From: Flavobacteriales bacterium
GTDB lineage: Bacteria; Bacteroidota; Bacteroidia; Flavobacteriales_D; Crocinitomicaceae
Assembly (NCBI GenBank): GCA_947475095.1
Contig: CANJLG010000009.1
Span: forward strand, 1-64,000
DNA: 64,000 bases
Direction: 5' to 3'
The notes under the pieces were generated by a model. It was not told the origin of the DNA. It searched no databases and worked only from the letters and a program-made list of their open reading frames with translations. Shown here piece by piece: positions 7,089-53,289 of the stretch. The first letter of the stretch is position 1; each line of letters begins with the position of its first letter. Made by a program: the position numbers and the translations under genes.

Positions 7089-7110
7089 TTTACTAAATTA
7101 ACAATCTTTT

Positions 7111-33777: not shown

Positions 33778-34665
33778 ATGATAAACCAGACCACAAAAGA
33801 TAAAATTCAGGCACTGCACCTTCAATATTTGAACTTGGCAAAGGGAAATGAAGCAGTGTTAAAGGAAATAGCCCTTGCCGAAATTCCGGAGTTGGTTTAT
33901 AACTCAAACGCTATCGAAAATTCAACCCTTTCCTTGGAGGACACAGAAAAAATTCTTGCAGGAGGCAATATAGATCGAAAAGTAAATGTAAGGGAAGTTT
34001 ATGAAGCCAAAAATTTGGCTAAACTTACTGAATCCTTATTAGAAAAAAGCACATCGTTGCTCCACATCAAACTCATTTTAAGTTTGCATAAAACGTTGCT
34101 TACCAACATTGACGATAATATTGCCGGTCGTTTTAGAATTGGCAAAGAATGGGTGCGTGTTGGCAATCACCTAGGTGCAAATCCACAGTTTGTTCCTACG
34201 CTTATGCAAGAACTAGTTGATAGTTACAACCAAAATAAAATCAGTTATTTTTTAGATGCTGTGGCACATTTTCACGCAGAATTTGAAACAATTCACCCAT
34301 TTGTTGACGGAAATGGGCGAATGGGTAGAGTGCTTATCAATCTGCAGTTAATAAAGTTAGGTTTCCCACCAATTATCATTCAAAATAAAAGTAAACATAC
34401 TGAATACTATCCGCTCTTTACACAGTACCAGTCAACAATGAAATTTGCAGGTTTTACCGAATTATTTGCGCTACTATTGCAAGAATCTTTACACAAAAGA
34501 ATAAGCATACTTACAGCAAAAAAAATAATTCCACTTGCTCTTTGGGCATCGCAAAAAGGAGTGAAGCCTAACATTGCAGCCAATAAAGCCAAAAGGCAAA
34601 CGATTCCTGCCTTCCGTCTGCGAGAAAAATGGATGATTTCAGAAGAATATATATCAAGTAAATAA
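33778..34665 (+). CDS. Fic domain protein (adenylyltransferase-type) with C-terminal HTH-like region
   Basis: HPFVDGNGRMGR Fic core; N-terminal inhibitory-type SxxxEN (SNAIEN); C-terminal NIAANKAKRQTIPAFRLREKWMI. Confidence 0.93.
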   Translation: MINQTTKDKIQALHLQYLNLAKGNEAVLKEIALAEIPELVYNSNAIENSTLSLEDTEKILAGGNIDRKVNVREVYEAKNLAKLTESLLEKSTSLLHIKLILSLHKTLLTNIDDNIAGRFRIGKEWVRVGNHLGANPQFVPTLMQELVDSYNQNKISYFLDAVAHFHAEFETIHPFVDGNGRMGRVLINLQLIKLGFPPIIIQNKSKHTEYYPLFTQYQSTMKFAGFTELFALLLQESLHKRISILTAKKIIPLALWASQKGVKPNIAANKAKRQTIPAFRLREKWMISEEYISSK

Positions 34666-35792: not shown

Positions 35793-36920
35793 TTGTCAGA
35801 CTATAAAATAATGAATCAAAGAATAATTGCTTTCGATTTAATGCGAGCAATTATGCTTTTACTACTGGTAGCGTTTCATGCTGGAATCTCATTTATGAAT
35901 AGTGAGTTAAATCCAAATTTGTGGTTTTTTAAAGACAGCTCAACACATATTTTTTTTGATGGTTTAATCGGCTTTATACACACGTTTAGGCATCCAGCTT
36001 TTTTTGTTATTTCAGGTTACGTAACACACCAAATGTTTCAAAAGTATTCCTGGAAAGAAGTCTTGAGTAAACGATTTAAGAGGTTGTTCATTCCAATGCT
36101 CATGACCATAGTTTTAATGGGTCCACTTGTATATATATTATTTGCACAATTGAAGGGAAATGTTGAAGCGTTTAGCCTTGAAGTGATCTACCCATCAAGC
36201 GAAGGACATCCCTATAGAGTGTCTACAATTTACGTTTGGTTTTTATATTATTTATTATTGTTTAGCGCAGTTCATCTCGTTCTAGAACGTTTTGCAATAG
36301 GTGCTTTTTTTAAACGCTTTAAAATAGGTGTCAATTGGTTTTTAAAATCGGTATTAATCCTCACGGTATTGGTTATGGGATGTCTTTTGGCATGGCAAGA
36401 AAATTCCTTATTTGGTGATTATCACTTAAATCCAGCTTGGCCTTCAGTTGTAGGCTATTTAGTGTTTTATATTTTCGGAATATTTTTAGCGAATAGGGAG
36501 GAAGCTTTGTACAAGATTAGACGGTTCGGAGGGCTATTTGTAATTCTTGGTACGGTATCTTTTGTTGTATACTCCGCTCAAGGAATGCTTGTTATGAAGG
36601 AAGAAGTTAATGCGATGCGATTTAATTATCTTCTTATGATTAGTTCTAGTTTAGCAACTGTATTCTACTCATTTGGATTTCTTGGCTTGGCCTTGAAGTA
36701 TTATACCAAACAGAACAAAATGGTTTCGTATATTGCTAAGTCATCCTACTTTTTATACCTAATCCACTTTCCTATCTTACTATACTTTTTAAAAATAAGT
36801 GTCGGATTCGAGTGGAATGTCTTTATTAAGTTTTTCTTTGTACTAATTACCACTTGTATTGGGTCGCTGATCTTAAATAGTATCTGGATTAAGGCTTGGA
36901 GAAATAACCCGCCAATTTGA
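35793..36920 (+). CDS. Acyltransferase 3 family membrane protein (MdoC/OPG-like)
   Basis: RIIAFDLMRAIMLLLLVAFHAGISFM, HTFRHPAFFVISGYV; about 10 TMs. Confidence 0.9.
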   Translation: MSDYKIMNQRIIAFDLMRAIMLLLLVAFHAGISFMNSELNPNLWFFKDSSTHIFFDGLIGFIHTFRHPAFFVISGYVTHQMFQKYSWKEVLSKRFKRLFIPMLMTIVLMGPLVYILFAQLKGNVEAFSLEVIYPSSEGHPYRVSTIYVWFLYYLLLFSAVHLVLERFAIGAFFKRFKIGVNWFLKSVLILTVLVMGCLLAWQENSLFGDYHLNPAWPSVVGYLVFYIFGIFLANREEALYKIRRFGGLFVILGTVSFVVYSAQGMLVMKEEVNAMRFNYLLMISSSLATVFYSFGFLGLALKYYTKQNKMVSYIAKSSYFLYLIHFPILLYFLKISVGFEWNVFIKFFFVLITTCIGSLILNSIWIKAWRNNPPI

Positions 36921-37005
36921 ATGTTAAAACAAGATTCTTTATCTATTTTAAATGAAGATAAAAGATCGCTATTTAACATTCAATACGTAAATTAATAAAT
37001 TGTAT

Positions 37006-37482
37006 ATGAGATTTTTCTTAATTGATAGAATTAGAGAGATGGTTCCTGGAGACAGAGCCATAGGCGTTAAATGTTGGAGTATGGATAACGAGATTTTTCA
37101 AGATCATTTTCCTGGGCTTCCGACAACACCTGGAGTTTTACTGACAGAGTCAATGGCACAATTATCTGGCGTCTTGATTAAAAAAAGTTACTATAAAGAG
37201 TACGGTACCGCCACAAAAGTATACCCGGTGCTGAGCATTATTCAAAAAGCTAAATTTAGATCGTTTGTTCGACCGGGAGACCAATGTGTAATTAAGGCTC
37301 AACTTATTTCAATTGATCGCGGAAGAGGTAATACGAAAGTTGAAACGTTTGTTGAGGATGAGCTTGTTTGTGAAGCAACACTTTCTTTTATTATTGGAAT
37401 GGAAATGGATATGGAGAATAATCCTCAGATTGATAAAATTGAAACTTACTTTGATAGTATTTCACCAAAAATTGGAGCCTAA
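37006..37482 (+). CDS. FabZ-like hotdog 3-hydroxyacyl-ACP dehydratase
   Basis: DHFPGLPTTPGVLLTESMAQLSG (His and Glu catalytic positions retained). Start at ATG 37006. Confidence 0.9.
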   Translation: MRFFLIDRIREMVPGDRAIGVKCWSMDNEIFQDHFPGLPTTPGVLLTESMAQLSGVLIKKSYYKEYGTATKVYPVLSIIQKAKFRSFVRPGDQCVIKAQLISIDRGRGNTKVETFVEDELVCEATLSFIIGMEMDMENNPQIDKIETYFDSISPKIGA

Positions 37483-38495
37483 TGGACATGGTTATCAAGG
37501 CAACTAACTTTAATGCTCCTGTAATTTTTTTGAAGAGAGAAATGTCTCAGATTAGGAAGCAGTTCTACACTGCAGGAGATATAATAATTTCTCCTGACGA
37601 GGGAAATTACCTGAATAGAAGTGATCAGAAAATAATGCGTCAAGACGTAATGGGATCTATATTAATCATCAACGAAATGTTAAGAGAGAATCCGCCAAAA
37701 GAGCTTGAAAACATTCCTTTATATGTTTCGAATGGCGCTTTTGTTGAAAATACCGAAAAGCATCTAAATCGAATTGTCAATGTGTATAAATCTATTGAGA
37801 AAGGATCAAGTCAAGAGGAAATTACACGGAGCATATATAGGGCAAGTCCACCATTAATTGCATTGGAAACATTGACCAATTCGACCATGAGTTTCATTGC
37901 TCAATATACTGGTATAAAAGGGAATAATGCAACTTTTGGCAATACCTCAATGTCATCTATTCATGCACTTCAAGAGGCAAGTATTGCCTTACAAACCGCT
38001 CCTTTGGTAATTGTAAATAGCTCCAATTGTGGTGGTGATTATTCGTATTTAACCAATTCTTCCGTATTGGGATATGAAGAAAAGTGGAAAGATAGTACTG
38101 GTGTCGCCTGCTTATTATTAGGAAGCCAGCAAAATGATAATAGAACGTCATTAGCACGAATAACTTTAGTGAAAAATGGTTTCAATGTTCCAAATATAGA
38201 ATCGAAAGGCATCGAAAGAACATGGTCTGAATTAATGCCTGATTTCAATGCCAATGTACTAATTTGCTCAGGAGCGTATTCTGAAAATGAGAATCAACTT
38301 GATATAGATTATTGCAAAAAAGTGAATGCCAATGTTTACTCGCATTTCGATGCATATGGAAATATGGGACCGTCAAACATCTTCTTTGGAATCATTAAGG
38401 CAATTGAATTAATTCAAGAAGGATCTGCTATTATTGATATAGTTGATAGAGATGTTTTCGGTAGAGAATCAATAATTCGAGTTGAAAAATGTTAA
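37482..38495 (+). CDS. Ketosynthase-like protein lacking catalytic Cys (CLF-like)
   Basis: Thiolase-like fold inferred from spacing; NATFGNTSMSSIHALQEASIAL replaces TACxSS, and YGNMGPSN replaces the His-containing GHxxGAAG; directly precedes an intact KS. Confidence 0.65.
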   Translation: MDMVIKATNFNAPVIFLKREMSQIRKQFYTAGDIIISPDEGNYLNRSDQKIMRQDVMGSILIINEMLRENPPKELENIPLYVSNGAFVENTEKHLNRIVNVYKSIEKGSSQEEITRSIYRASPPLIALETLTNSTMSFIAQYTGIKGNNATFGNTSMSSIHALQEASIALQTAPLVIVNSSNCGGDYSYLTNSSVLGYEEKWKDSTGVACLLLGSQQNDNRTSLARITLVKNGFNVPNIESKGIERTWSELMPDFNANVLICSGAYSENENQLDIDYCKKVNANVYSHFDAYGNMGPSNIFFGIIKAIELIQEGSAIIDIVDRDVFGRESIIRVEKC

Positions 38496-39772
38496 AGAAG
38501 AAAGTTTACATATTAGACTATGAAATGATTAGTCCGATTGCTGTTGGCGTGGAGCAACTTGCCGAGAGCATTAGGTCGAACTACAGCGCAGAAAAGCAAA
38601 TTGAGAGAATCGCTACTGAAGGGTGTGTTTTTAGAAAAGCAGCGGAAGTCACAGAAGACCTCACGAAATATTATGAAAATGAATCAAAGGGATTAAAGAA
38701 AGCCTTTTCCGGAGATCGAAAGCTTGAATTAATGGCTGCTTGTTATGGAAAAGCGGCAAGCCGACTTGAAGAATTAATTGGAATGTTGAATCCTTCGAAA
38801 ACAGGTGTTATTGTTGGAGTTGGTGCAGATGTAACTCCTTTTGAGTTGTTTGAAGATGACTTAAGAGAGTATATAAATCAAGGTTATAACCCTCTTTTCG
38901 AGTTGTATTCAGAAATCAATGACAATGGAATGCGTGTAAATGTTATTAGTAATCCTTATGATATTTACGCATTATATTTAGCGAATAAATTTAAGGCGGG
39001 GGCATTTCAAAAATCGGTTTTAACCGCTTGTGTTTCATCAACTCAAGCCATTGCCTTAGGATATGATGCCATTGCTAAAGGAGACGCTGAGCTTGTCATC
39101 GTTGGCGGAACAGATTCGCTCATTAATTTACTAGCGATTATCTCTTTTGGAAAACTTGGTGTAATTCCAGAATCAAAAAATGAAATTAGTTGCAAGCCAT
39201 TTGATGTAAATCGAAATGGTGCTTTAGCTGGGGAGTGCGCTGGTTTCGCAATACTAGCTTCTGAAGATTTTGTTGCGAAAAATAACATGTCGCCAATTGC
39301 AGAATTATTGGGTTACGGAAATACCTTAGACGCGTATAAAATTACGGCACCTGATCCAAATGGGTACTCGATGACAAAAGCGATAAAAGACGCTATGGAC
39401 AACTCGAATCTGACAGCTGATATGCTCGATTATATTAATGCGCATGGAACAGGAACTAAGCATAATGATCAATTAGAATTATCTTGCTACGAAAGTGCTT
39501 TGGGTGAAATCGCAAAAACAATTCCTATATCGTCAACTAAAGATAGGCACGGACACGCAATTGCAGCAGCCGGAATTCAGGAGCTTTGTGTTGTCTTGGA
39601 ATCAATGAAGCATAATTTAATTCCTGGAAATAGGAATTTAATAAACTCTTGTGATTTAAGCTTTAATTTGCTCACGAAGAATACAACTAAGAAAATTGAA
39701 TATGCGCTAACGAGCAATTTTGCTTTTGGCGGAATTAATACGGTATTGGCTGTTAAAAATTTACGTAAATGA
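38489..39772 (+). CDS. Beta-ketoacyl-ACP synthase (KAS II/FabF type)
   Basis: LTACVSSTQAIALG (catalytic Cys), INAHGTGTKHND, STKDRHGHAIAAAGIQEL. Confidence 0.93.
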   Translation: MLKKKVYILDYEMISPIAVGVEQLAESIRSNYSAEKQIERIATEGCVFRKAAEVTEDLTKYYENESKGLKKAFSGDRKLELMAACYGKAASRLEELIGMLNPSKTGVIVGVGADVTPFELFEDDLREYINQGYNPLFELYSEINDNGMRVNVISNPYDIYALYLANKFKAGAFQKSVLTACVSSTQAIALGYDAIAKGDAELVIVGGTDSLINLLAIISFGKLGVIPESKNEISCKPFDVNRNGALAGECAGFAILASEDFVAKNNMSPIAELLGYGNTLDAYKITAPDPNGYSMTKAIKDAMDNSNLTADMLDYINAHGTGTKHNDQLELSCYESALGEIAKTIPISSTKDRHGHAIAAAGIQELCVVLESMKHNLIPGNRNLINSCDLSFNLLTKNTTKKIEYALTSNFAFGGINTVLAVKNLRK

Positions 39773-40524
39773 ACCTAGATTTAAAAGATAAAGTAGTATT
39801 GATTACCGGAGGAACCGGCGGTATTGGTGGTCAAGTAGTTGCTGATTACCTTGCTGAAGGAGCAATTGTGGCTTGTCTTATTCGGAATGAAAAAAAAATG
39901 GAAACACTTCACATTGAATTAAATAAAGCAACTATTTCTACTGATAAGCTTCATTCTTTCGAGTGCGATTTACTTGATTTTGACGATGTAAAAAGAGCCA
40001 CCCTTGAGGTGGTTAATAAACTCAAGAACATTCATATATTAATCAATTGCGCTGGGTTCGCAGATGAATTTCCTTTTGCTATGCTGGATCGTGAAAAAAT
40101 TGACATGATGATAGACCTTAACTTAAAAAGTCCAATCTATTTGTCACATGCCGTTCTTAAAACAATGTATAAACAAAAAGAAGGGTGCATTATAAATGTC
40201 TCATCTGTTTCTTCCATTAAAAAGGGTAGGGGGATTACAGTTTATGCAGCAGCTAAAGCAGGACTTGAAACATTTACCAGAACATTAGCCATTGAAGTTG
40301 GGAGAAAGAATATCCGTGTAAACTGTATTCGTCCCGGTGTTATTTTAACTTTAATGAGCGGTCCCCTTTTGGATAGGTCTAGAGAACTTATTGAAGGAAA
40401 TACCGCATTATGCAGGCCAGGAGAACCTAGTGAAATTTCTGCTGCAATATTATTTATGTCATCAAACAAAACAGCATCTTATATGACTGGTGAGACCATC
40501 ACTATTGATGGAGGAATGTATTAA
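39769..40524 (+). CDS. 3-oxoacyl-ACP reductase (FabG-type SDR)
   Basis: LITGGTGGIGGQV, INCAGFAD, YAAAKAGLETFTRTLA, GETITIDGGMY. Confidence 0.93.
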   Translation: MNLDLKDKVVLITGGTGGIGGQVVADYLAEGAIVACLIRNEKKMETLHIELNKATISTDKLHSFECDLLDFDDVKRATLEVVNKLKNIHILINCAGFADEFPFAMLDREKIDMMIDLNLKSPIYLSHAVLKTMYKQKEGCIINVSSVSSIKKGRGITVYAAAKAGLETFTRTLAIEVGRKNIRVNCIRPGVILTLMSGPLLDRSRELIEGNTALCRPGEPSEISAAILFMSSNKTASYMTGETITIDGGMY

Positions 40525-40533
40525 AATATAATT

Positions 40534-40929
40534 ATGGAAATGAACGAGATTTTTGAAAATGTATGTGTTATAATCGAGAATTCAACTGGAAAACCTAAAG
40601 ATTCGATAAAAATGGAAGATACACTCTTCGAAGAGTTGGGAGTGGATTCAATTGATTTGGTCGATATTTTATTCGAATTGGAAACACTTTATAATGTCGA
40701 ATTGAAAGTGAGTGATATCGAGCAGAGAATTAGAGAGGAGCTTGGAGATGTGCCATACGAAATTGATGGAATTATTACCTCTGAAGGGCTTGAAGCAATT
40801 CGAAAGCACATGACTGAAGTTGATCCAGCATCAATTAAGGAAGGACTTACCGTTAATCGCTTGATCCAGCTTTTTTCCGTGCATTCCTTATGTAAAATTG
40901 TTCATTATCGAATTTCAAATCTTGATTAG
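40534..40929 (+). CDS. Acyl carrier protein with C-terminal extension
   Basis: EELGVDSIDLVDILFELE (phosphopantetheinylated Ser motif DSID); about 45 aa C-terminal extension. Confidence 0.9.
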   Translation: MEMNEIFENVCVIIENSTGKPKDSIKMEDTLFEELGVDSIDLVDILFELETLYNVELKVSDIEQRIREELGDVPYEIDGIITSEGLEAIRKHMTEVDPASIKEGLTVNRLIQLFSVHSLCKIVHYRISNLD

Positions 40930-40932
40930 ACA

Positions 40933-42063
40933 ATGAGATTCTATCGAATTCTAAACGATGAATTACTGCATTCCTTTGGGGATAAAATTGGCGATGTACC
41001 AGTTTGTGGTAAGCGACTTATTGATTGTCAAAATGAAAGTGTTCTTGCCCTTGGTGCTGAAATCATTGATGTGGTCAGCACTGAAAAAATTAATGAGACA
41101 GTTGCTCATTTTGTATTCCATGAGCATGTTTTTTTCACTTCTGAATTTTTAAAGGAATGTTTGGCTCTTGGATCATCAAAGCAGAAGAATCTTCAATTCT
41201 GTCTGAATCGAAATACTTTCAATGAACGTTATGTGCTTCCTTGCAAACAAGACACAGAAGAATATCATGTCTTAGAATTTTATTATTATCAAGGAGAAGG
41301 TCAGCTAGAATTTATCCCAGTTGAACAGGAATTATTTGAACATGTTACAGTGATGCCATCTCAAATTATCCGAGACAAACTCTTTCACATGGATCAATGT
41401 GACGTTTTTGCGTGTAATGTTATATCACCTTTTCATCTCTTGTTTATTAATCTGGCGATGAATTTGAAACGTACCATTCCTTTGCAAAAGAAAGTGCCTA
41501 AATTCTTAAGGAAACGCTTCGGTCAGACAGGAGGTAGTTGGTTTTACCGAGGATTGAAACGGATGAATAAAATTGGAAAGAATTGTAAAATTCATCCCAC
41601 CGCTTTGATTGAAGGATCTGTTATTGGTGATAATGTTACCATTGGAGCAAATTCAATTGTTCGTTTATCCACAGTAGGTAACCTTTGTTCTATATCTGAT
41701 AATGTAACAGTAATCAACTCCATTTTAGGAGATAAAACATATATCGCTAATAGTAATTACATTAATAGTTGCTTGACCTTTAATGAGGTATTCCTTATTC
41801 ATGGACCCTATCAAATTTCAGTGTTTGGAGAAAATTCTGCTTGTTTTGCAGTAATCAATTGCGATATCAGACTTGATCAAAAAAACATAAAAATACCGAC
41901 ATCTCAAGGTGTATTAGATTCCAATCAGGAATTTTTAGGTGTCGCATATGGTCATCGCTCTAAAACAGGAGGTGGAAATATTATTGCTGCCGGCAGAATT
42001 GTACCAAATGATTTACACATCACTCCTCCTGATAACATAATACTTAGCTTCAAGGATTTATGA
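40933..42063 (+). CDS. Hexapeptide (left-handed beta-helix) acyltransferase-like protein
   Basis: KIHPTALIEGSVIGDNVTIGANSIVRLSTVGNLCSISDNVTVINSILGDKTYI; N-terminal domain unrecognised. Confidence 0.75.
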   Translation: MRFYRILNDELLHSFGDKIGDVPVCGKRLIDCQNESVLALGAEIIDVVSTEKINETVAHFVFHEHVFFTSEFLKECLALGSSKQKNLQFCLNRNTFNERYVLPCKQDTEEYHVLEFYYYQGEGQLEFIPVEQELFEHVTVMPSQIIRDKLFHMDQCDVFACNVISPFHLLFINLAMNLKRTIPLQKKVPKFLRKRFGQTGGSWFYRGLKRMNKIGKNCKIHPTALIEGSVIGDNVTIGANSIVRLSTVGNLCSISDNVTVINSILGDKTYIANSNYINSCLTFNEVFLIHGPYQISVFGENSACFAVINCDIRLDQKNIKIPTSQGVLDSNQEFLGVAYGHRSKTGGGNIIAAGRIVPNDLHITPPDNIILSFKDL

Positions 42064-43145
42064 GGATATCAATCATTGGAGCATACGGGTACACGGGGCG
42101 TCTAATTTGCGCTGAACTAGAAAATGCAGGGATTCCTTTTTCAATTTTTGGGAGAAATGAGAAAAAAATAGAGGAGCTCAAAGAAAAATTAAAGTCAGTT
42201 TCATTAGCATTGGCCTTGGATATGCGAAAAGAGGAAGATGTTCAGCTAGTTATTGACGAATCGGATCTAATTGTAAATTGTGCCGGCCCTTTCACTGAAG
42301 AAGCACAGCTATTAACAAGAAGTGCTGCTAAAAATGGCAAAAAATACCTTGATATAACAGGAGAATTAGGATTTGTTAGAAATTCATATGTGAACAATCA
42401 TGCAGAATCCTTAAAAAATAAGGCTTGTCTAGTGCACGGTTGTGCCTTTGAGTCGCTTGTTGCTGATTTAATAATTCATTTACTTGTTAAGGGACAAACG
42501 AAAATTAAATCCATTCGCAGTTTTTATTGGTTCAATCAAAAGAAATTTTCGCCTGGAACGCGCATTACAATGAAGCTTTCAAAGTTCAGGGCACTTGAGA
42601 AAATCTCGGATGGAGCTTGGTCAATTGGCAACATTTTCAGCGATCAATTAAAGGTTCATTGGTCTAATTCTTTGGATACTCATTTCAAAGCAGTGCCGTA
42701 TCCACTTCCGGAAATAGCGTATGCTTATTGGAATTATGAACCAAAAAAAGCAGAAAGTTTTATTCTTCTCACAGAAGATGAAGTAATGTTTGTAGGGGGA
42801 TCCAAGCAAAGTGATGAACCTGCAATAGACGCACTTGATAAGTTAAGGGAGTTTAAACCATCAGGGCCTACAAAGGAAGAATTGAACGCTCAAAGAAGCA
42901 TTTTAGCGATTGAAATAATTGAAGAAAACGGAACTGTATCCTCTGCAGTAGTAAACGCAAGGAACATGTACCAAACTACAGCCATAGCAATTCGACTATG
43001 CGTTGAGGAATTAATCCAAAATCCAGCTAAATTTTCAGGTGTGATTAGTCCCGCTCAAATTTTCGATGGGAAAGAAGAACAAACATTGAAAGCGCTAAAT
43101 GTCGAATATGAAATTGAAAATAAATTGATCATTTATGATGTATAG
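42060..43145 (+). CDS. Saccharopine dehydrogenase-fold NAD(P) oxidoreductase (trans-enoyl reductase-like candidate)
   Basis: MRISIIGAYGYTGRLICAELENAGIPFSIFGRN, LIVNCAGPF, YLDITGELGFV. Confidence 0.8.
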   Translation: MRISIIGAYGYTGRLICAELENAGIPFSIFGRNEKKIEELKEKLKSVSLALALDMRKEEDVQLVIDESDLIVNCAGPFTEEAQLLTRSAAKNGKKYLDITGELGFVRNSYVNNHAESLKNKACLVHGCAFESLVADLIIHLLVKGQTKIKSIRSFYWFNQKKFSPGTRITMKLSKFRALEKISDGAWSIGNIFSDQLKVHWSNSLDTHFKAVPYPLPEIAYAYWNYEPKKAESFILLTEDEVMFVGGSKQSDEPAIDALDKLREFKPSGPTKEELNAQRSILAIEIIEENGTVSSAVVNARNMYQTTAIAIRLCVEELIQNPAKFSGVISPAQIFDGKEEQTLKALNVEYEIENKLIIYDV

Positions 43146-43908
43146 GTTACTACTTCACATATTTCCCGTGATTCAACTCGTTTCCTTTATTTCAGGACTT
43201 CTGTTGTTGGATTCACATGTTTACTATGCAATCACATTGTTCTTTTTATCGGCCTTATTTCTTAATTTTTCTTTACACATTACGATCCATCATTTTGTAC
43301 ATTTTAGGTTTAAATCAAATATCGTAAACCTCTGTATTGAATGCATTTATTCTATTTTTTTGGCGCTTCCTTTTAGTTTTTATAGAATGCAACATTTTAA
43401 TCATCACCGTTATGATAATCGAATTGGAGATATGACCTCCACCTGGAAAAACAAGAATGGAACTTTTGTGGCTAGATCATTTTTTAACTATTCATTCTTT
43501 TGGTTTTTAAAGGGCTCAACGAAAATCGCTGTTGAAAGAGCATTGAAAGATGGGGATTTAAACAATAAGGAGCACCGAAAAATCCAATTTCAGTTCCTAA
43601 TTATCCTGGGCATGTATTTTTTTCTAATTCTACTTAATCCATGGTTTGGGCTTGCATATGTAAGCATGTTCTATATAGGTTGGAGTTTAATTGCCATGAC
43701 GAATTACGGTCAGCATCTTCCACTAGAGTATGACTCAACTGCGGCTTATTCATATCACAATTCAATGTACAATTTCCTGTTTTTTAAAAATGGACTTCAT
43801 CTGGAACATCATCTTGACCCGCACCTGAATTATCCTGAACTAACATCCAAGAATCAATCGAATATAAAGTGGCCTCATCTGATTATGGCCTTTATTAGAA
43901 AAAAATGA
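43135..43908 (+). CDS. Membrane fatty acid desaturase
   Basis: Three His boxes: HHFVH, HFNHHRY, LHLEHHLDPH. Confidence 0.88.
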   Translation: MMYRLLLHIFPVIQLVSFISGLLLLDSHVYYAITLFFLSALFLNFSLHITIHHFVHFRFKSNIVNLCIECIYSIFLALPFSFYRMQHFNHHRYDNRIGDMTSTWKNKNGTFVARSFFNYSFFWFLKGSTKIAVERALKDGDLNNKEHRKIQFQFLIILGMYFFLILLNPWFGLAYVSMFYIGWSLIAMTNYGQHLPLEYDSTAAYSYHNSMYNFLFFKNGLHLEHHLDPHLNYPELTSKNQSNIKWPHLIMAFIRKK

Positions 43909-46004
43909 AAGGTATAATCGACATATTGGTTCGTAAAAAACTACTCTTTTTCATCATTGGAATGTTGAGCGTTATTGGAACCTTGTGCGTATTGCCATTT
44001 CCAAAATTTACCGGTAATTTGGACGGCTTCTCGCTCGAGGACAATAATACATTTAAAAAAGCGAAAGAACTGGATATGCTTTTTGGTGGTAAGGAAAAAG
44101 TTTATTTAGTAGTTACTCCAAATTCCGACAGCCTTGAAGTAGTTCTAAATTCAATCGATTCGATTTCGCTGAATTTAAAAAACAAGTTTGCCGATGCCGA
44201 AATCTCTTCACCAAAATCATTTTATAGTAAAATGATCAGGCACTGGAAAACAAAAGATAATAAATTCTCTTCATTTCTAAAGGAGGCTAGTGAGGTGCCA
44301 TTGCTACAACAATTAATTGCTCGCGATAAATCCTCCTTTTTGATCATTTTGTCCCTTGACCATCATGATGAATCAACGGCAAATGAAATCAATAAAGTGA
44401 TCAACAAGAAATACCAAGGAATCAATACCATTGGGGCAATGAGTACTGTTCATTTGGAAGCAGACATTAAAAAACATGTCGAAAAAGATGTGGTGCTAAT
44501 TTCAGTGCTTATCCTGGTGTTTTTCCTTGGATTTATTATGCTGATTTTTAGGGATTTTTTGGCGGTGGTGTTCACCTTCGTCAATATAATGATTTCTCTA
44601 TGCGCTGCCTTCGTTTTATTTTATATCCTCGGTTATAAAATCAATATTATTTCAATTTTGGTTATTCCTATCACATTGATATTGTCTATGTCCGACTCCC
44701 TACACTTGTTGGTAGGGTATATTAAAAATAAAAATATTGTAAATAAAGAACAACGGCTGAGCAAGGTTATCGATCAATATATTATTCCTTCGTTTTTCTC
44801 ATCTGCTACAACTGCAGCGGCTTTCTTTTCTTTCTATCTGTTCAATGACTCTCAATATATCAGGGAATTTGGTTTGATAACCTCAATTGCCTTGATGATT
44901 GAGTTTTTTCTAACTTTTGCAATCGCACCGTTTCTTTTGTACAAATTCAATTTTCAACGCTTATACGAAAAGCAACTCAATCAAATTTCTGTCTTCTTCT
45001 TTAGAACGAAGAATATTTTTTCTCTAGGCTTTCTCTTATTGATATTAATTTCAATACCCTTAATCAATAAATTAAAATTTCATACCGATTCAGGTGTATT
45101 TTTTCCACGAAATTCGGAAATTCGAAAAGTACACGATTCGCTTATTAAAAATTATCATTCTTTCATTGACTTAACCGTCTATGTTAGTCTTAAGAAGGAT
45201 GTGAATAATCAATCAGGAAATGATTCTCTATTTGACATTACTAAGAAACTGACGCAACGATTTGAAAAACTTGATAAAGTTGTGAACGTTAATTCTGCCA
45301 CAGAACAATTCATGTTTAAATCGAAAGTTGGCACACGTGTAAATTTGTTTGCGCATTTGAATGATCGAAATCCCTATTATAATGCCGATAAAAATTTGTA
45401 CAAAATTCAAGTTCAATTTAAAGAAGCACAACATATTATTGATCTTAAAAATCGTGGATTGAAACAACTATTGGCAGATTTACCAAATGATATTGAAGTG
45501 TCCTATTCAAGTAATATTCTTTTAATGGATGCGGTGAACGCTAGTGTAGCCTCGTCCTTGTTAAAGTCGTTATCATCCTCAGCATTTGTTATCTTTTTAA
45601 TGATGCTGCTATTGTCTAGGTCGCTTAAAACTGCTTTCTATTCTCTCCTTCCGAATATTGCACCGATTGCGTTTATTGTAGTAATGTATTTTGTTTTTGG
45701 AATGCACATTAATATTCTGACAGCAATCACTGCTGTAATTTGCCTTGGTCTTTTAGACGATGATACGGTTCACATCATTTACCGAAAACTATACCTGAAA
45801 GAACCAATGGGGGAATTATCATTTAGTATTTTGTCATCAGCAGTTTTATTGAATATCGGTTTTCTATTGTTTATGTTCAGCAGTTTTGAACCCATCAGAG
45901 TGTTGGGGTGGGTGAGTGCAATCATTTTTACTGTCGGAGTGGTATGTGAAATGACCTTAATGCAATGGGTGATTGAACGTGTTAAAAATAAGAAGGATGT
46001 TTGA
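43905..46004 (+). CDS. MMPL/RND family lipid exporter
   Basis: About 12 TMs with two large loops; LVIPITLILSMSDSLHLL and AVICLGLLDDDTVHIIY RND-type TM4/TM10 motifs. Confidence 0.9.
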   Translation: MKGIIDILVRKKLLFFIIGMLSVIGTLCVLPFPKFTGNLDGFSLEDNNTFKKAKELDMLFGGKEKVYLVVTPNSDSLEVVLNSIDSISLNLKNKFADAEISSPKSFYSKMIRHWKTKDNKFSSFLKEASEVPLLQQLIARDKSSFLIILSLDHHDESTANEINKVINKKYQGINTIGAMSTVHLEADIKKHVEKDVVLISVLILVFFLGFIMLIFRDFLAVVFTFVNIMISLCAAFVLFYILGYKINIISILVIPITLILSMSDSLHLLVGYIKNKNIVNKEQRLSKVIDQYIIPSFFSSATTAAAFFSFYLFNDSQYIREFGLITSIALMIEFFLTFAIAPFLLYKFNFQRLYEKQLNQISVFFFRTKNIFSLGFLLLILISIPLINKLKFHTDSGVFFPRNSEIRKVHDSLIKNYHSFIDLTVYVSLKKDVNNQSGNDSLFDITKKLTQRFEKLDKVVNVNSATEQFMFKSKVGTRVNLFAHLNDRNPYYNADKNLYKIQVQFKEAQHIIDLKNRGLKQLLADLPNDIEVSYSSNILLMDAVNASVASSLLKSLSSSAFVIFLMMLLLSRSLKTAFYSLLPNIAPIAFIVVMYFVFGMHINILTAITAVICLGLLDDDTVHIIYRKLYLKEPMGELSFSILSSAVLLNIGFLLFMFSSFEPIRVLGWVSAIIFTVGVVCEMTLMQWVIERVKNKKDV

Positions 46005-47799
46005 AGCGAAAATAAATATGAATTGTAATGAAGCAATAGCATGGGGGGCAATGGCTTCCGGTGTTGATTTAGTTGCACATTACCCAGGTTCCCCTGTGAA
46101 TTTGGTTGAATTGAATGTCAAAAAATTGAATGATCGATTCCATGGAAATGTTCAATTCAATAATTCATTAAATGAACACGTTGCTGCATTAGCGGCGGCT
46201 GGAGCAAGCTTTTGTGGTGCTCGTTCGATGGTAATTATGAAACACGTAGGTTTAAACATTGCCGCTGATCCATTTAATTATATCGGATACACAGGTGTTA
46301 AAGGCGGAATGGTGATTATTGTAGGCACTGATCCTGGAGCGAATTCGAGTACGGGTGAAGAAGATGTGCATTGGTTTGTTCCTCAGTTCAATTTCCCATT
46401 GATCGAACCCACTTCAGTTCAGGAGTGCTACGACTTCACAAAGGAAGCGTATGAAATCTCCGAGCGCTACGAAATTCCTGTGATGCTATTTATTCCAGGT
46501 CGATTGGCCTATAATTATTCAAGCGTTGAAGTGAGTTTGAAGAAGCAAGAATCCAAGCCTAAATTTTATTTTGAAAAGGACAAAGAACGATATATCAATG
46601 TAGGACAGCAGGCCGTTAAGAATCACAAACTACTGCTAGAAAAAGTGGAGCTGATCGCTAAAACAGAATCAATTTGTAAGTCACATTTTAATGCGGATGC
46701 AAAACACGGCATTCTTGTAAGAGGATTGTCTTATTCTATGACTAGGGAACTTATCGAAAAACATGAACTTCAAAATCAAGTTCATTTACTGAATGTCGAT
46801 TTAGTATTTCCGTTGAATGAAAATGATTTAGTATCGTTCATTAAAGGAAAGGATGTCATTACGGTTATCGAAGATCAGGACGGTTTTTTAGAAAATCAGC
46901 TAAAAATGAACTTCTTCAATTTCTTGAAATGCTCCGTATATGGTAAGGATGTTTTTCCAAAATATGGTGAAATTACAATCGATCAAATTGAGGCTTATTT
47001 CGAAGAAGTATTCCAAATTGAAGTCGTAGAAAAAAAGAGCCTGAGCGTTCCTGAAATTCCAGAACGATTGGGGACTTTTTGTGAAGGGTGTCCACATACG
47101 GGGTCATATTATTCAATTGATTCAGTTTTGAAAGAATTGAATGGTGTAATTGGTGGTGATATCGGCTGTTCGTCATTAGCTCCATTTCGAGCAGATTGGC
47201 TTATGTGTATGAATGCGGGTATTGGAGTATCACAAGGAATGGCGCAAGTCTTGACCGATCAACCTGTAATTTCAACTGGTGGTGACGGTAGCTTCTTCCA
47301 TGCCGGTGCATTGTCACTTATGAGTGCGGTGCATAATGATATTAACCTCATTCATATGGTTTTCGATAACAGTACCATCGCAATGACCGGACATCAACCT
47401 TCACCCTCCGAGTTTGATTTTGATCATCATAAATTTCTTGAAGGTATGGGGGTGAAAACGGTGATTGATGTTTCACCCTATGATCCGAAAGATTTTATTC
47501 AAAAATTCAAAGATGAGCTGCCTAAAAAAGGAGTCCGTGTATTTTGGGTGAAGGGCGCATGTGTACTAAAAGGAAATGACTTTATCGAAAGTCGCAGAAA
47601 TGTAATTTATCCTACTATAGATGCCACAAAATGCGGATCGTGTTCAAAATGTTACAAAGAATTAGCTTGTCCGGCAATCATAAATCTAAAATCAAGTCCT
47701 GATCAAGAATTGGCCATTGATCTAGATCGTTGTGTGAGGTGTGGAGTGTGTAACGAAATTTGTCCGAATGGGGCAATCTCAATTCAAAACATGAAATGA
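45997..47799 (+). CDS. iorA: Indolepyruvate:ferredoxin oxidoreductase alpha-like subunit (TPP, 2x[4Fe-4S])
   Basis: GDGSFFHAG...FDNSTIAMTGHQPSP TPP site; C-terminal CGSCSKCYKELAC and CVRCGVCNEICP ferredoxin motifs. Confidence 0.9.
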   Translation: MFEAKINMNCNEAIAWGAMASGVDLVAHYPGSPVNLVELNVKKLNDRFHGNVQFNNSLNEHVAALAAAGASFCGARSMVIMKHVGLNIAADPFNYIGYTGVKGGMVIIVGTDPGANSSTGEEDVHWFVPQFNFPLIEPTSVQECYDFTKEAYEISERYEIPVMLFIPGRLAYNYSSVEVSLKKQESKPKFYFEKDKERYINVGQQAVKNHKLLLEKVELIAKTESICKSHFNADAKHGILVRGLSYSMTRELIEKHELQNQVHLLNVDLVFPLNENDLVSFIKGKDVITVIEDQDGFLENQLKMNFFNFLKCSVYGKDVFPKYGEITIDQIEAYFEEVFQIEVVEKKSLSVPEIPERLGTFCEGCPHTGSYYSIDSVLKELNGVIGGDIGCSSLAPFRADWLMCMNAGIGVSQGMAQVLTDQPVISTGGDGSFFHAGALSLMSAVHNDINLIHMVFDNSTIAMTGHQPSPSEFDFDHHKFLEGMGVKTVIDVSPYDPKDFIQKFKDELPKKGVRVFWVKGACVLKGNDFIESRRNVIYPTIDATKCGSCSKCYKELACPAIINLKSSPDQELAIDLDRCVRCGVCNEICPNGAISIQNMK

Positions 47800-48341
47800 G
47801 CGACGAAGGAATACTAAATATTATTATTGCTGGAACAGGCGGACAAGGCGTCTTAACCTTGTCCAACATGCTCAGAAAACTTGCTATGAACAAAGGATTG
47901 AAGTGTGAAGGTGCAACATTTAAAGGTGGAGCACAACGAATGGGTTCTGTTTATGCAGAATTAAGGATTCTGCTAGATCCTCAAAGCAAGGCTTATTTTT
48001 CAAGTCAAATACCTAACTATTCAGTAGATGTCCTTATTGGAATGGAACCATGGGAGGCATTGCGCTTTGCAAATAGATGTAACACCGATACCTTATCTAT
48101 AATCAATTCGGAAGAAGAAAAGCTTTATGTTGAGCGCTACGGAAAAACAGCAATGATTGACCCAATTCAAACCTTGATTAAAGTATATAATTCACCCACA
48201 ATTAAAAACTACTCTCAATTATCAAAGGAACTTAAAGGAAGTTCAAAATTTACAAATTATCTAATGCTGCAAGAGGCTATCCAAAAAGAATACGTACCTT
48301 TCTCTATGGAAGAACTAATTGCAATAAAAACAGAAATATGA
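47796..48341 (+). CDS. iorB: Indolepyruvate:ferredoxin oxidoreductase beta-like subunit
   Basis: NIIIAGTGGQGVLTLSNML...GATFKGGAQRMGSVYAELRI; ATGA overlap with iorA. Confidence 0.9.
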   Translation: MSDEGILNIIIAGTGGQGVLTLSNMLRKLAMNKGLKCEGATFKGGAQRMGSVYAELRILLDPQSKAYFSSQIPNYSVDVLIGMEPWEALRFANRCNTDTLSIINSEEEKLYVERYGKTAMIDPIQTLIKVYNSPTIKNYSQLSKELKGSSKFTNYLMLQEAIQKEYVPFSMEELIAIKTEI

Positions 48342-49720
48342 CAGATTTTAAAGCAGAAAATTGGCGTTCTAATTCAAGGCCAGCGAATTATTGGCACAAT
48401 GCAGGAGAGAAAATCCAATGTGATTTATGCCCGCGACATTGTGAGTTAAAACCTGGTCAAAAAGGGTTTTGTCAAGTCAGGGGAAATGTGGAAGGCGAAA
48501 TGCACACATTTAACTATGGTATCTCAGTTCAAGCAACTATTGAAAATATTGAGACAGAAGCAGTGAATCATTATCGACCGGGCTCAAAAATACTGAGCAT
48601 GGGAAATGTTGGCTGTATGATGGCTTGTTCGTATTGTCAAAATTGGCAAACGTCGCAGGTGAAATTCTTGAATGATAAAAACGTTCATCATTATACACCT
48701 CAGGATGTTATTGATTTGGCTATTGAAAATGGAATTGAGATAATTTCATGGACGTATAATGACCCTGTTGTATGGCAAGAATTTGTTGTAGATACCTCTA
48801 GGCTGGCTCATGCGAACGGAATTAAAACCTTGTATAAGTCTGCTCTTTATATTGAGGAAGAGCCTTTAAAAGAGTTAATTGAAGTCATCGATATCTTCAG
48901 CGTATCCCTGAAAGGTATGGATCCTGAAATGTATAAAAAACAAACAAAAGGAGAATTACAGCCCGTTTTGGACAGGATTAAGTTAATTGGTCAAACGGAT
49001 CGACACCTTGAAATCAGTCAACTTGTTGTAACTGATCTGAATGACGATGGAGAAGACGCAGCAAAAACAGCCATCTGGATGAAAGAAAATTTAGGGACCC
49101 ATATACCTCTTCATTTGGTGGCATATCACCCGGCTTTTAGATATACAAAAGAAAGAACAAGCATTGAAACATTGCTTAAATTAAGAGAAATTGTTCTCGA
49201 AATTGGCTTGGAGTATTGCTACTTAGGAAACGTTTATGCCGATAATGTAAGTAATACGAACTGCAAGTCATGTAATGAGAAGCTAGTACAACGTTTTGGA
49301 TTGTCAGTTGAGGTAAAAGCAATTGATAACAACGGAAATTGCAGTAATTGTGGAACGAAAACTCCGATTATTGAACCAAAAATGGGTGTGTCAAAGAAAA
49401 TAGAAGTTCCTAATTTTCAGCCAAAACGATCACTTACTTTTGATTGGAAAAAAGAAGCTGTGAACAGCTTGCACATTATTGTTGATGATAAGCATAAAGA
49501 TGCATTTTTAAGAATAGAAAGACTACCAGTTGGAGAAGTGGAATTTTTAAAAATTACGGCTGGTTTGGAAAGATTAATACTTTCTAAAAGTAATGCTCAA
49601 GAATTATTACTATCAGTTCAAATAGATATAGATGTTGAATTAGATTTTTTACCCGTATTGGATAGAGCGCATTTCCCAGTGAAAAATGCCTCTACATCAT
49701 CAGATAAGTACTTGAATTAA
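48338..49720 (+). CDS. AmmeMemoRadiSam-type radical SAM enzyme with extra C-terminal domain
   Basis: CDLCPRHCELKPGQKGFCQVRGN, radical SAM CMMACSYC, zinc-ribbon CKSC...CSNC, plus about 110 aa C-terminal extension. Confidence 0.88.
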   Translation: MTDFKAENWRSNSRPANYWHNAGEKIQCDLCPRHCELKPGQKGFCQVRGNVEGEMHTFNYGISVQATIENIETEAVNHYRPGSKILSMGNVGCMMACSYCQNWQTSQVKFLNDKNVHHYTPQDVIDLAIENGIEIISWTYNDPVVWQEFVVDTSRLAHANGIKTLYKSALYIEEEPLKELIEVIDIFSVSLKGMDPEMYKKQTKGELQPVLDRIKLIGQTDRHLEISQLVVTDLNDDGEDAAKTAIWMKENLGTHIPLHLVAYHPAFRYTKERTSIETLLKLREIVLEIGLEYCYLGNVYADNVSNTNCKSCNEKLVQRFGLSVEVKAIDNNGNCSNCGTKTPIIEPKMGVSKKIEVPNFQPKRSLTFDWKKEAVNSLHIIVDDKHKDAFLRIERLPVGEVEFLKITAGLERLILSKSNAQELLLSVQIDIDVELDFLPVLDRAHFPVKNASTSSDKYLN

Positions 49721-49721
49721 T

Positions 49722-50834
49722 ATGAAGAACAAAACTATTTCAACGCATACTCGGGCAGATGTAACCAAGGCTTTCCCTGCTGCGACTCCTATTTATCAAA
49801 ATTCCGCATTTGAGTCACAATCAGATTATTTTTATTCAAGACTTAATAACCCTAATGTTGCCGAATTAGAGGATGCAATTCGCGTATTGGAAGATACAGA
49901 TTACGGTCTAGCAACAACTACGGGAATGTCGGCCATTCAATTGACACTTTCACTTTTAAAGCCTGGTCAGCGTATTCTTGTCAACAAACATGTTTATGGC
50001 TGTTCGTTTAAATTAATTCAGTGGTACACTGAACATTATGGACTAGAGCTTGTGGTGACTGATTTAAGTTTAGAATCAATTGATGAAAAATTAAAAGAAA
50101 TGGATATGGTTTTCTTCGAAACACCTACGAATCCATTTTTATTTACAATTGATATTGCTAAGGTTTCGAAACACTTTAAAGCGTTAAAATCCACTTGTTT
50201 GTTAGTTATTGATAATACTTGGGCAACACCTCTTTATCAAAGTCCTTGTTCTTTTGGCGGTGATATTTCGTTGCATAGCGCAACAAAATATATTTCAGGT
50301 CATAGCGATGTAATGGGAGGGATTCTTTTAACAAATAGAAAGGACTTAGCTGATGAATTGAGGTCGAGACGATTCTATACTGGGGCAAATTTAGACCCAA
50401 ATAGTGCATGGTTACTGAGAAGAAGCTTGCATACACTTGATGTTAGATTGGAAAGACAGGCTATTAATACAAAGCGTTTGGTGGATTATTTGGAAACGAA
50501 AAATGAAGTCAAAAAGGTGTATTACCCAAAGGTGGATGGTAAACAGTTGACGAATTATGCAACGCTTATTTTTATAGATCTGGATTCAAACATTATTGAT
50601 AATTATGGCCAATTTTGTTCGCACTTAAAACTTTTTAGTACCGGAACCGGAATGGCTTGTGTGACTTCAATGATTGCTCAACCTTATACTGGTAGTCACG
50701 CCTCCATGGATAATTGTGAGAAAGAGGACATGGGTTTAGATAAATCGACAATTAGGTTAAGTTTTGGGATGGAGGATCCTGAAGATTTGATGAACGATTT
50801 GGAGAATGCTTTTCAACAGATGAAAGGGAAGTAA
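49722..50834 (+). CDS. Cys/Met metabolism PLP-dependent enzyme (cystathionine gamma-synthase/lyase fold)
   Basis: PIYQNSAFESQSDYFYSRLNNPNVAELE, PLP Lys motif HSATKYISGHSDVMGG. Confidence 0.93.
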   Translation: MKNKTISTHTRADVTKAFPAATPIYQNSAFESQSDYFYSRLNNPNVAELEDAIRVLEDTDYGLATTTGMSAIQLTLSLLKPGQRILVNKHVYGCSFKLIQWYTEHYGLELVVTDLSLESIDEKLKEMDMVFFETPTNPFLFTIDIAKVSKHFKALKSTCLLVIDNTWATPLYQSPCSFGGDISLHSATKYISGHSDVMGGILLTNRKDLADELRSRRFYTGANLDPNSAWLLRRSLHTLDVRLERQAINTKRLVDYLETKNEVKKVYYPKVDGKQLTNYATLIFIDLDSNIIDNYGQFCSHLKLFSTGTGMACVTSMIAQPYTGSHASMDNCEKEDMGLDKSTIRLSFGMEDPEDLMNDLENAFQQMKGK

Positions 50835-50850
50835 AACCTATTTTCTGGAA

Positions 50851-52341
50851 TTACTCTTTAAGAATGAGACCCTTCGAATTAGCATTTTTTAGCCGAATAT
50901 GATTGTATTGCTCATTAGTATCTTGTCTGAAGCTCAATTTTTCAATGGTTCCCATGGTAATCTGTTTTGAATAATTAGCATTTGATTTTTCTAAATAGTC
51001 ATTGAGTAAAGCAATTTTAGATGCTAGTTGGCCATCTGACGAGCATAGTGTAAGGCCATTACCCTTATTATTTAATACAAAATAAAGTCTTGATAGATCA
51101 TCTATATTCGCCTTGTCTAAAGCAGCGTAAAGTTCCTTTTCTTCAATATTAGCCCAGCCTAAGCTTATTTCAGAGTTCGCTCGAGAGTGAAAACAAATTT
51201 TTGCCATCCTACCTTCGTACCCTGAACACTCAACAAGGTCATACGTACGATAACGACAAAATCCTATCGAATTAGTGATGACTATTTCATAAATCCCTCC
51301 AATTTTCAATTCCCACGGCCATAAGTAACGATTATTCTTTTCGTCATAGAATTCTAAAATCCCACCAAAAGGATTTACCGGGCCACCAACACCCTCTATT
51401 CCAGGGATATTAAAATGACCTTCTACAGCGTTGTAAGTCAAATCGACAAAAGTAATAGACCCAAAATCAAATTGACTTTTTAGATCTTTTAATTGACGCT
51501 GACAAACTTCGCCAGATTTCCAACATGAAATAAATTTTAAAGAAGGCCATACTTCACTGATCTGGTGAATTGGATTTTGAAGAATTTTTAATAAGAATTG
51601 AATTCGTTTTTCATCTACTTTATGCGTAATAATTGAAGGCCAATCTCGCTTTTCTAGATGTGCTAGAATATTCAAGCGTTCTAAGTTGATTTGCTTGAAA
51701 AAATGCGTTAATCGAGTTGGGATGGAAGTACTAATGCCCGAAATATCACTCAGTAATGCTGACAATAAATGCCATTCATTGAATAGAGATTCCTCCTTAT
51801 ACAGTTCCTTTGGAAAAACAAATTTCTTCTTTACCCAATTGGGCATTTTCGAGTAATAATAATAGCCCACCTGACCAATTGGTAATTCTGGGGCAATTTC
51901 TTGCGTTTGACCCGGCATAACAAAAATGATTTCTGGAGCTCCTGAATAAACACCAAAAGCTTTTATAAGTTGAGCAGGTTGAAATGCCGCTCCCTCCATA
52001 CGAGATTTAATAAAGCTATCCGAAATTGGGATAATTTTTGGAAGGCCAGTGGAGCCAGTGGAGCAACACCAGAATTCTATTTTTTCATCAATTAACGAGT
52101 TTATTTTAGTCCTTAAACTCTGTTTAAAGACATCGTGGTAGTCATTGTAATTGGTAATCGGAAGTTGACGTAAGGTATTAATATCATCCGTTTTTGCTAG
52201 TTGATTTTGAAGAGGGTGTTTTGGAGCATTCATCAAGTTATTCCACGTGATAGCGTAATGCTTTTCGGGAAATAGAAGGGCTTTTTTCAAGCGTTTAAGC
52301 TGAAAATCGGCCCATTTATTAAAAATCCACCTTTTAATCAT
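50851..52341 (-). CDS. GH3-like acyl-adenylate-forming / amido synthetase family protein
   Basis: CSTGSTGLPKIIPISDSF P-loop; YNAVEGHFNIPG; GGIYEIVITNSIGFCRYRTYDLVEC; FHSRANSEISLGWANIEEKEL, the GH3-type layout. Confidence 0.8.
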   Translation of the reverse strand: MIKRWIFNKWADFQLKRLKKALLFPEKHYAITWNNLMNAPKHPLQNQLAKTDDINTLRQLPITNYNDYHDVFKQSLRTKINSLIDEKIEFWCCSTGSTGLPKIIPISDSFIKSRMEGAAFQPAQLIKAFGVYSGAPEIIFVMPGQTQEIAPELPIGQVGYYYYSKMPNWVKKKFVFPKELYKEESLFNEWHLLSALLSDISGISTSIPTRLTHFFKQINLERLNILAHLEKRDWPSIITHKVDEKRIQFLLKILQNPIHQISEVWPSLKFISCWKSGEVCQRQLKDLKSQFDFGSITFVDLTYNAVEGHFNIPGIEGVGGPVNPFGGILEFYDEKNNRYLWPWELKIGGIYEIVITNSIGFCRYRTYDLVECSGYEGRMAKICFHSRANSEISLGWANIEEKELYAALDKANIDDLSRLYFVLNNKGNGLTLCSSDGQLASKIALLNDYLEKSNANYSKQITMGTIEKLSFRQDTNEQYNHIRLKNANSKGLILKE

Positions 52342-52883: not shown

Positions 52884-52889
52884 AATTCG

Positions 52890-53289
52890 TGGAGTCGGAG
52901 GGGTTCGAACCCTCGTCCAAACGACGAATATTCCAGCTTTCTACATGCTTATTTCTTGATTGGTTTTCGATTGTGAGACGGACAAGAACACCCAAACTCA
53001 CAACTTAGCTTCTAAAGTTTCGCAAGCGCTTAGAAACATCGCGAATGCTAGCCTGATGGGATGAACTTCCGATTGGTAAATCTAACAGGCAGAAATCTAC
53101 CGGAAGTACTCGTCCAACCTACTAAACTTCGATCGGATAAAGCCAACTAACTATCAGTTAATTAAGCAGCAAGTGCGTATGACGTATTGTCAATTATTGT
53201 TCGCAAAAAGATATTTAAGAGGTTCCTTGCAACCCTCTGCATGCTGACACTTGACTACCGCTATCGCTGTCAAATCCAATGTCGACCCC
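52890..53289 (-). ncRNA. ssrA: Transfer-messenger RNA (tmRNA)
   Basis: Minus strand 5' GGGGTCGACATTGGATTTGACAGC; tag frame GAC AAT ACG TCA TAC GCA CTT GCT GCT TAA (DNTSYALAA*); 3' GACGAGGGTTCGAACCCCTCCGACTCCA; 5' GGGGTCG pairs with 3' CGACTCC. Confidence 0.96.

Follow-up and report, generated by a model that had tools for sequence, protein, structure and literature searches.

A putatively mobile gene cluster in a Crocinitomicaceae genome, a candidate source of an undescribed exported envelope lipid

What might a bacterium make with an operon that joins a type II chain-building cycle to a 2-oxoacid:ferredoxin oxidoreductase, a radical S-adenosylmethionine (SAM) enzyme and a pyridoxal phosphate (PLP) enzyme? 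The question is raised by a 64,000-nucleotide stretch of DNA from a Flavobacteriales bacterium of the Crocinitomicaceae (assembly GCA_947475095.1, CANJLG010000009.1), here called the window, which is contig C9 of a 2.56 Mb genome that is 98.7% complete. Fourteen open reading frames (ORFs), all on the plus strand, span positions 35793-50834, and not the 13 genes counted in an earlier note on this DNA. Judging from sequence, we lean towards reading them as a single biosynthetic gene cluster, horizontally mobile, for making and exporting a specialised lipid of the cell envelope. The observations behind this view are the gene content, intact catalytic motifs, linkage, co-occurrence, a desaturase-MMPL fusion and the fold of a chain-length factor (CLF)-like protein.

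Operon layout and conserved linkage

Apart from the first gap of 79 bases, neighbouring genes of the operon overlap or lie no more than 9 bases apart throughout. The junctions named in the earlier note are all present in the sequence: a TAATG in which the dehydratase and CLF-like genes share base 37482, and ATGA overlaps at 39769, 42060, 43905, 47796 and 48338. IorA and IorB, the two oxidoreductase subunits, most likely start at ATG 45997 and ATG 47796, the upstream TTG codons of the ORF list being less likely. Promoter and terminator scans gave nothing better than shuffled sequences.

The operon holds a KS block, comprising a beta-ketoacyl synthase (KS), the CLF-like protein, a ketoreductase (KR), a dehydratase (DH), an acyl carrier protein (ACP), HexP, the reductase SacDH and the MMPL exporter, and a second block of IorA, IorB, the radical SAM enzyme and the PLP enzyme. 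The earlier note had staked its proposal in advance on the linkage of these blocks, and this linkage was found to be conserved. Families were assigned by matches to Pfam/NCBIfam profiles, and HexP (40933-42063, +; PF00132), a left-handed beta-helix (hexapeptide) protein and probable acyltransferase that marks the cluster, was used as bait. Counting the window's own genome in both cases, the bait was detected in 4 of 399 genomes from the order and in 1 of 398 from the phylum, and a scan of one genome per species across 85,462 species gave 28 loci. Three relatives in the same GTDB genus (G012, G023 and G078) share the identical order DH-CLF-KS-KR-ACP-HexP-SacDH-MMPL-IorA-IorB-radical SAM-PLP, with protein identities to the window ranging from about 22% (CLF) to 60% (radical SAM). 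A chance neighbourhood is ruled out by the recurrence of this order at such identities in several genomes.

The closer HexP loci (40-58% identity) belong to Bacteroidota, Bdellovibrionota and Verrucomicrobiota. Another Flavobacteriales metagenome-assembled genome (MAG) has one contig, L029, that stops within the MMPL gene, and a second, L088, that stops within the other side of MMPL and then carries IorA-IorB-radical SAM-PLP; since both end inside MMPL from opposite sides, the pair reads as one operon split by assembly. A Bdellovibrio MAG (L033, L091) holds KS, CLF, DH, KR, ACP, HexP, SacDH, IorAB, MMPL, radical SAM and PLP genes in about 20 kb, in rearranged order and without a desaturase or acyltransferase in that interval, and this rearranged yet linked cluster is the strongest sign of one function. 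Both blocks are also linked in a Bacteroidetes MAG, but no IorAB was seen there. In all, the blocks stand together in the window, G012, G023, G078, G798, G800 and G802, and G801, G804 and G805 contain both, which agrees with the single conserved biosynthetic unit proposed in the earlier note. Two independent neighbouring sets, one a specialised fatty-acid cycle and the other for amino-acid catabolism, could be argued from the IorAB module that occurs without the KS block in several phyla. This explanation is nevertheless largely refuted by linkage recurring across two phyla, HexP and the desaturase are common to both arrangements, and we consider it very improbable.

Co-occurrence points the same way. 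Within the order, the radical SAM enzyme was found in exactly the four HexP genomes of 399, a coincidence with a chance probability of about 1e-9 were the genomes independent, which they are not (one genus, linked genes). Its profile matches 24 of 25 HexP genomes, lying on another contig in seven, and in four of these seven it adjoins IorA and/or IorB. Only the short conventional form was found in G806 and G807.

Trees of both HexP and IorA pair the window with the split operon of L029/L088, away from the same-genus copies. The neighbouring LytB protein shows 62-64% identity throughout the genus genomes searched, and the three same-genus relatives carry the cluster at a different site from the window, with upstream neighbours of their own in common. 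Base composition is ordinary (GC content of 34-38% in operon genes versus 36% in the window), so that no recent foreign composition was seen. Horizontal transfer appears to be the simplest reading, drawn from the two trees, whose support is modest, and from the different insertion site.

Predicted chain building, modification and export

The type II cycle of KS, CLF-like protein, KR, DH and ACP described in the earlier note is borne out by families, catalytic motifs and the CLF fold. In the FabF-type KS (38489-39772, +; PF00109/PF02801), Cys181, His319, Lys351 and His356 are invariant across eight aligned homologues. The FabZ-like 3-hydroxyacyl-ACP dehydratase (37000-37482, +; PF07977, E=2e-17) retains the FabZ-type His/Glu motif (HFP...PGVLLTESMAQ) in 10 of 11 homologues, the FabG-like short-chain dehydrogenase/reductase KR (39769-40524, +; PF13561, E=2e-52) has a conserved Ser-Tyr-Lys motif, and the phosphopantetheine serine of the ACP (40534-40929, +; PF00550, E=1e-8) lies in DSID.

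The third gene (37482-38495, +) has no match to any Pfam or NCBIfam model. Its nine-sequence profile aligned with a KS alignment in hhalign (87% probability, E=4e-6) and gave weak matches to KS and CLF chains of the PDB. When its AlphaFold2 model (predicted local distance difference test, pLDDT, 78) was searched with Foldseek, the top four PDB matches were the short subunit of AntDE (6smo/6smp, E about 1e-14). Where the KS has its cysteine, eight of the nine copies have Ser, Gly or Ala and one has Cys. On the KS/CLF fold and this replacement, the modelled protein is classed as a CLF-like KS partner without the active cysteine.

A housekeeping synthase, or a variant of a polyunsaturated-fatty-acid synthase, without a specialised product would likewise show enzymes like those of type II fatty acid synthase (FAS) and a FabF-like KS. 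We give this explanation little credence: the cluster marker is confined to the four genomes of the order mentioned above, the window's own genome has two further, stronger-scoring KS genes on other contigs, and both a dedicated exporter and a CLF are present.

The exporter, desaturase and hexapeptide protein listed in the earlier note were all recovered by Pfam/NCBIfam. The HexP profile matches LpxD/GlmU/LpxA structures. The membrane di-iron desaturase/hydroxylase-like protein (43135-43908, +; PF00487, E=9e-18) has histidine boxes conserved across phyla, and the MMPL/RND-type lipid exporter (43905-46004, +; PF03176) contains a sterol-sensing-like domain. In the three same-genus relatives the desaturase is the N-terminal portion of a fusion with MMPL, 900-912 residues long (L020:13316-16054, L021:13046-15772 and L028:9808-12510), to whose C-terminal two thirds the window's MMPL protein is 30% identical; to our knowledge this is an unusual domain combination. 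The first gene of the operon (35793-36920, +) encodes a family 3 membrane acyltransferase (Acyl_transf_3; PF01757, E=3e-30). L029 has a copy at the same place (30% identity), and the three same-genus relatives have a different Acyl_transf_3 protein placed after the PLP gene.

SacDH (42060-43145, +; PF03435, E=7e-9) is an NAD(P)-dependent reductase with a saccharopine-reductase-like fold, and its AlphaFold2 model (pLDDT 88) best matched carboxyspermidine dehydrogenase, lysine dehydrogenase and saccharopine reductase in Foldseek. It had been put forward as a candidate enoyl reductase; the reductase family stands, and the enoyl role does not follow from a likeness to these enzymes at the level of fold. 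Its Pfam family also takes in the putative mycobacterial enoyl reductase Rv2953 (PMC3089613). Given the fold and the shared Pfam family, either imine or enoyl reduction is possible.

A separable IorAB, radical SAM and PLP module

The 2-oxoacid:ferredoxin oxidoreductase and the Cys/Met PLP enzyme fall in the families expected by the earlier note. The IorA-like alpha subunit (45997-47799, +; thiamine pyrophosphate, two 4Fe-4S motifs) scores 442.7 bits with TIGR03336, under the equivalog cut-off of 650.9, and shares 48-65% identity with the IorA proteins that other lineages have in the conserved module; the IorB-like beta subunit (47796-48341, +) matches PF01558 (E=6e-17). The PLP enzyme (49722-50834, +; PF01053, E=2e-91) is of the methionine/cystathionine gamma-lyase-like type, roughly as near to methionine gamma-lyases as to cystathionine gamma-lyases, and its YGC motif is invariant in 12 homologues.

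The radical SAM enzyme (48338-49720, +) carries CxxxCxxC and scores 307.6 bits with the AmmeMemoRadiSam-type model TIGR04337 (cut-off 220). The label AmrS given to it previously is sound as family membership; the AmmeMemoRadiSam system is not supported, as no match to AMMECR1 (PF01871) or MEMO (PF01875) was found in the window's genome (controls positive in 5 for each) and most homologues here are extended by a C-terminal domain not found in conventional copies. The copies seen elsewhere in the phylum were all short, conventional ones without this domain. In two Bdellovibrionota MAGs that have the KS block (L033/L091 and L087) the gene also reads as a short ORF, so not every copy in these clusters carries the extension. 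A role as glycyl-radical activase is also unsupported, there being no PFL-like glycyl radical enzyme (PF02901) match in the genome (controls positive in 3).

More distant HexP loci (30-37% identity) occur in Gammaproteobacteria, Planctomycetota, Geobacteraceae and Bacteriovoracaceae, and in many of them IorA-IorB-radical SAM-PLP-desaturase genes adjoin HexP. The genomes concerned showed no KS of this clade at the level of the KS-type genomes, with far weaker KS matches only in G811 and G814. In 15 loci (L041, L042, L043, L044, L045, L046, L047, L048, L049, L050, L051, L053, L054, L055 and L056) from Proteobacteria, Planctomycetota and Bdellovibrionota, an Lgt-like (PF01790) membrane protein lies beside a divergent HexP, mostly adjacent to it. 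Those of the Lgt-like copies that were read have GRIGC or GRLGC where Lgt has GRIGN. This distribution suggests a shared precursor with two lipidation routes. It is conceivable, and we propose it only tentatively, that a new class of envelope lipids is built on a common IorAB-radical SAM-PLP-desaturase-HexP precursor module, anchored through either the KS-CLF/MMPL or the Lgt-like diacylglyceryl-transferase route to give related lipids. The module ranges over Bacteroidota, Verrucomicrobiota, Bdellovibrionota, Planctomycetota and Gammaproteobacteria. Aquificota were left out of this range because the IorA of L054, a record labelled 'Aquificaceae', groups with Gammaproteobacteria/Cocleimonas sequences in the tree; this label looks wrong, as does the 'Sphingomonadales' of L034, which belongs to the window's genus.

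Beside the cluster or HexP, lineages outside the window's genus repeatedly carry B12-binding radical SAM proteins (L031:14437-15861, L091:4172-6205, L036:2866-4698 and L048:4619-6022). L048, from a Geobacteraceae MAG, also encodes a protein (6745-8382) in which a domain like that of N-acyl amino acid synthases (FeeM) precedes a weak match to class V aminotransferases.

IorAB may supply a priming acyl-coenzyme A (CoA), and KS priming cannot be its sole role since the module is present in genomes without these KS genes. An alternative is that IorAB acts as an electron source and supplies no starter, the PLP enzyme freeing a 2-oxobutyrate-like 2-oxo acid and the reduced ferredoxin driving the radical SAM enzyme and the desaturase. 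Radical SAM enzymes and desaturases need electrons, the PLP enzyme is gamma-lyase-like, and no set holds together more tightly across lineages than IorA-IorB-radical SAM(-PLP), whether KS genes are present or not. On the other hand, IorA-type enzymes usually prefer aromatic 2-oxo acids such as aryl pyruvates, and other ferredoxin reducers exist in bacteria. We regard this alternative as possible, if rather doubtful.

In the favoured reading, an exported envelope lipid, every chemical step is predicted, as is the product being a lipid. KS-CLF with KR, DH and ACP would build an acyl or polyene chain of fixed length, and SacDH might act as reductase on an intermediate. An older, separable module of IorAB with the radical SAM and PLP enzymes would make a precursor (head group or starter): the PLP enzyme may be the source of a 2-oxo acid or thiol, IorAB would oxidatively decarboxylate the 2-oxo acid to acyl-CoA and reduced ferredoxin, which could also serve the radical SAM enzyme and the di-iron desaturase, and the radical SAM enzyme would alter the precursor. 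HexP and the family 3 acyltransferase may join the pieces, modification of the product at the membrane may fall to the desaturase, and its movement towards the outer membrane would be the task of the MMPL protein.

Several points weigh against this reading. The KS was nearer to FabF than to the aryl-polyene KS in PDB searches, so the chain may be fatty-acid-like instead of polyene, and SacDH is no more than a candidate enoyl reductase. As the IorAB-radical SAM-PLP-desaturase-HexP module exists without KS genes, the two blocks need not act one after the other in the chemistry. Absences are weak evidence, because most of the homologues are from MAGs.

If the reading is correct, type II polyketide-like chain building would be coupled to radical SAM and 2-oxoacid:ferredoxin chemistry in a mobile lipid pathway scattered widely among bacteria whose envelope lipids have had little study. 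It would also offer a test bed for this AmmeMemoRadiSam radical SAM branch working without its usual partners, and HexP and the long radical SAM enzyme could then serve as marker genes for locating producers.

Beyond the operon, a GH3-family gene of the acyl-adenylating type (50851-52341, -) converges on it with a 16-base gap. It was rejected as a cluster member, as no GH3 homologue was present in any relative locus fetched. Past this gene, about 2 kb from the operon end, lies a tmRNA gene (52887-53289, -), a possible island site. Upstream, positions 31433-33403 encode a MORN_2-repeat protein of 656 residues, with a Fic-domain protein (33778-34665) downstream of it.

Comparison with known systems

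Aryl polyene clusters (ApeC/O, ApeE/F, ApeI/P, ApeQ, ApeM) likewise have a KS with a short CLF, KR, DH, ACP, an acyltransferase and an RND/MMPL exporter. By gene content the operon contains their KS-CLF with KR, DH and ACP, a KS-CLF heterodimer is predicted, and an outer-membrane lipid would be expected from the likeness. This common architecture is the basis for an aryl-polyene/flexirubin-like pigment cluster as an alternative, in which IorAB takes the place of the ammonia lyase/CoA ligase and provides the KS-CLF with an arylacetyl-CoA starter; IorA-family enzymes (TIGR03336) do take aryl pyruvates. However, IorA here is far under the TIGR03336 cut-off, the IorAB module is present without any such KS, and the operon lacks much of the pigment gene set, which makes a pigment unlikely in our view.

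In aryl polyene clusters the starter is activated by the acyl-ACP synthetase ApeH, Lol-like genes lie beside the RND exporter (PMC8253772), and two ACPs and a second KS, ApeR, are found (PMC8358021). Among the 14 operon proteins there is no acyl-ACP synthetase/AMP-binding family member or acyl-CoA ligase, no second KS or ACP, no methyltransferase or glycosyltransferase, and no LolA/LolB-like protein beside the exporter. Unlike aryl polyene clusters, the operon adds IorAB, the radical SAM enzyme, the PLP enzyme, the desaturase and SacDH. The flexirubin cluster (flx, darAB), from the same phylum Bacteroidota, has a type II FAS-like cycle and a predicted exporter, and includes a tyrosine ammonia-lyase and a 4-coumarate-CoA ligase (PMC3992019). 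Neither of these, nor the dialkylresorcinol genes DarA/DarB, nor the cysteate fatty acyltransferase of sulfonolipid synthesis (the sole PLP enzyme being of the Cys/Met type) was found in the operon, to which these searches were confined; the LolA of the flexirubin cluster is also missing from the operon. By operon gene content, then, the earlier view that the cluster matches no flexirubin, aryl polyene or sulfonolipid system holds. No described cluster with this gene combination was found in a literature search, which is weak evidence as most subscription journals lay outside it.

Other likenesses are partial. The radical SAM enzyme shares TIGR04337 with the AmmeMemoRadiSam three-gene system and differs from it in the missing partners, the extra domain and the lipid-type cluster setting. 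SacDH and the Rv2953-type trans-acting enoyl reductase share a Pfam superfamily and both adjoin polyketide-lipid genes, whereas the fold matches of SacDH are amino-acid/polyamine dehydrogenases, with no structure of Rv2953 among them. AntDE:AntF, the anthraquinone type II polyketide synthase whose short CLF subunit best matches the third gene, is an aromatic-polyketide system without an exported lipid or IorAB module. The cluster resembles aryl polyene and flexirubin clusters in outline but is not filed with them because several of their defining genes are missing; from its genes, it looks like a recipe for an undescribed exported membrane lipid.

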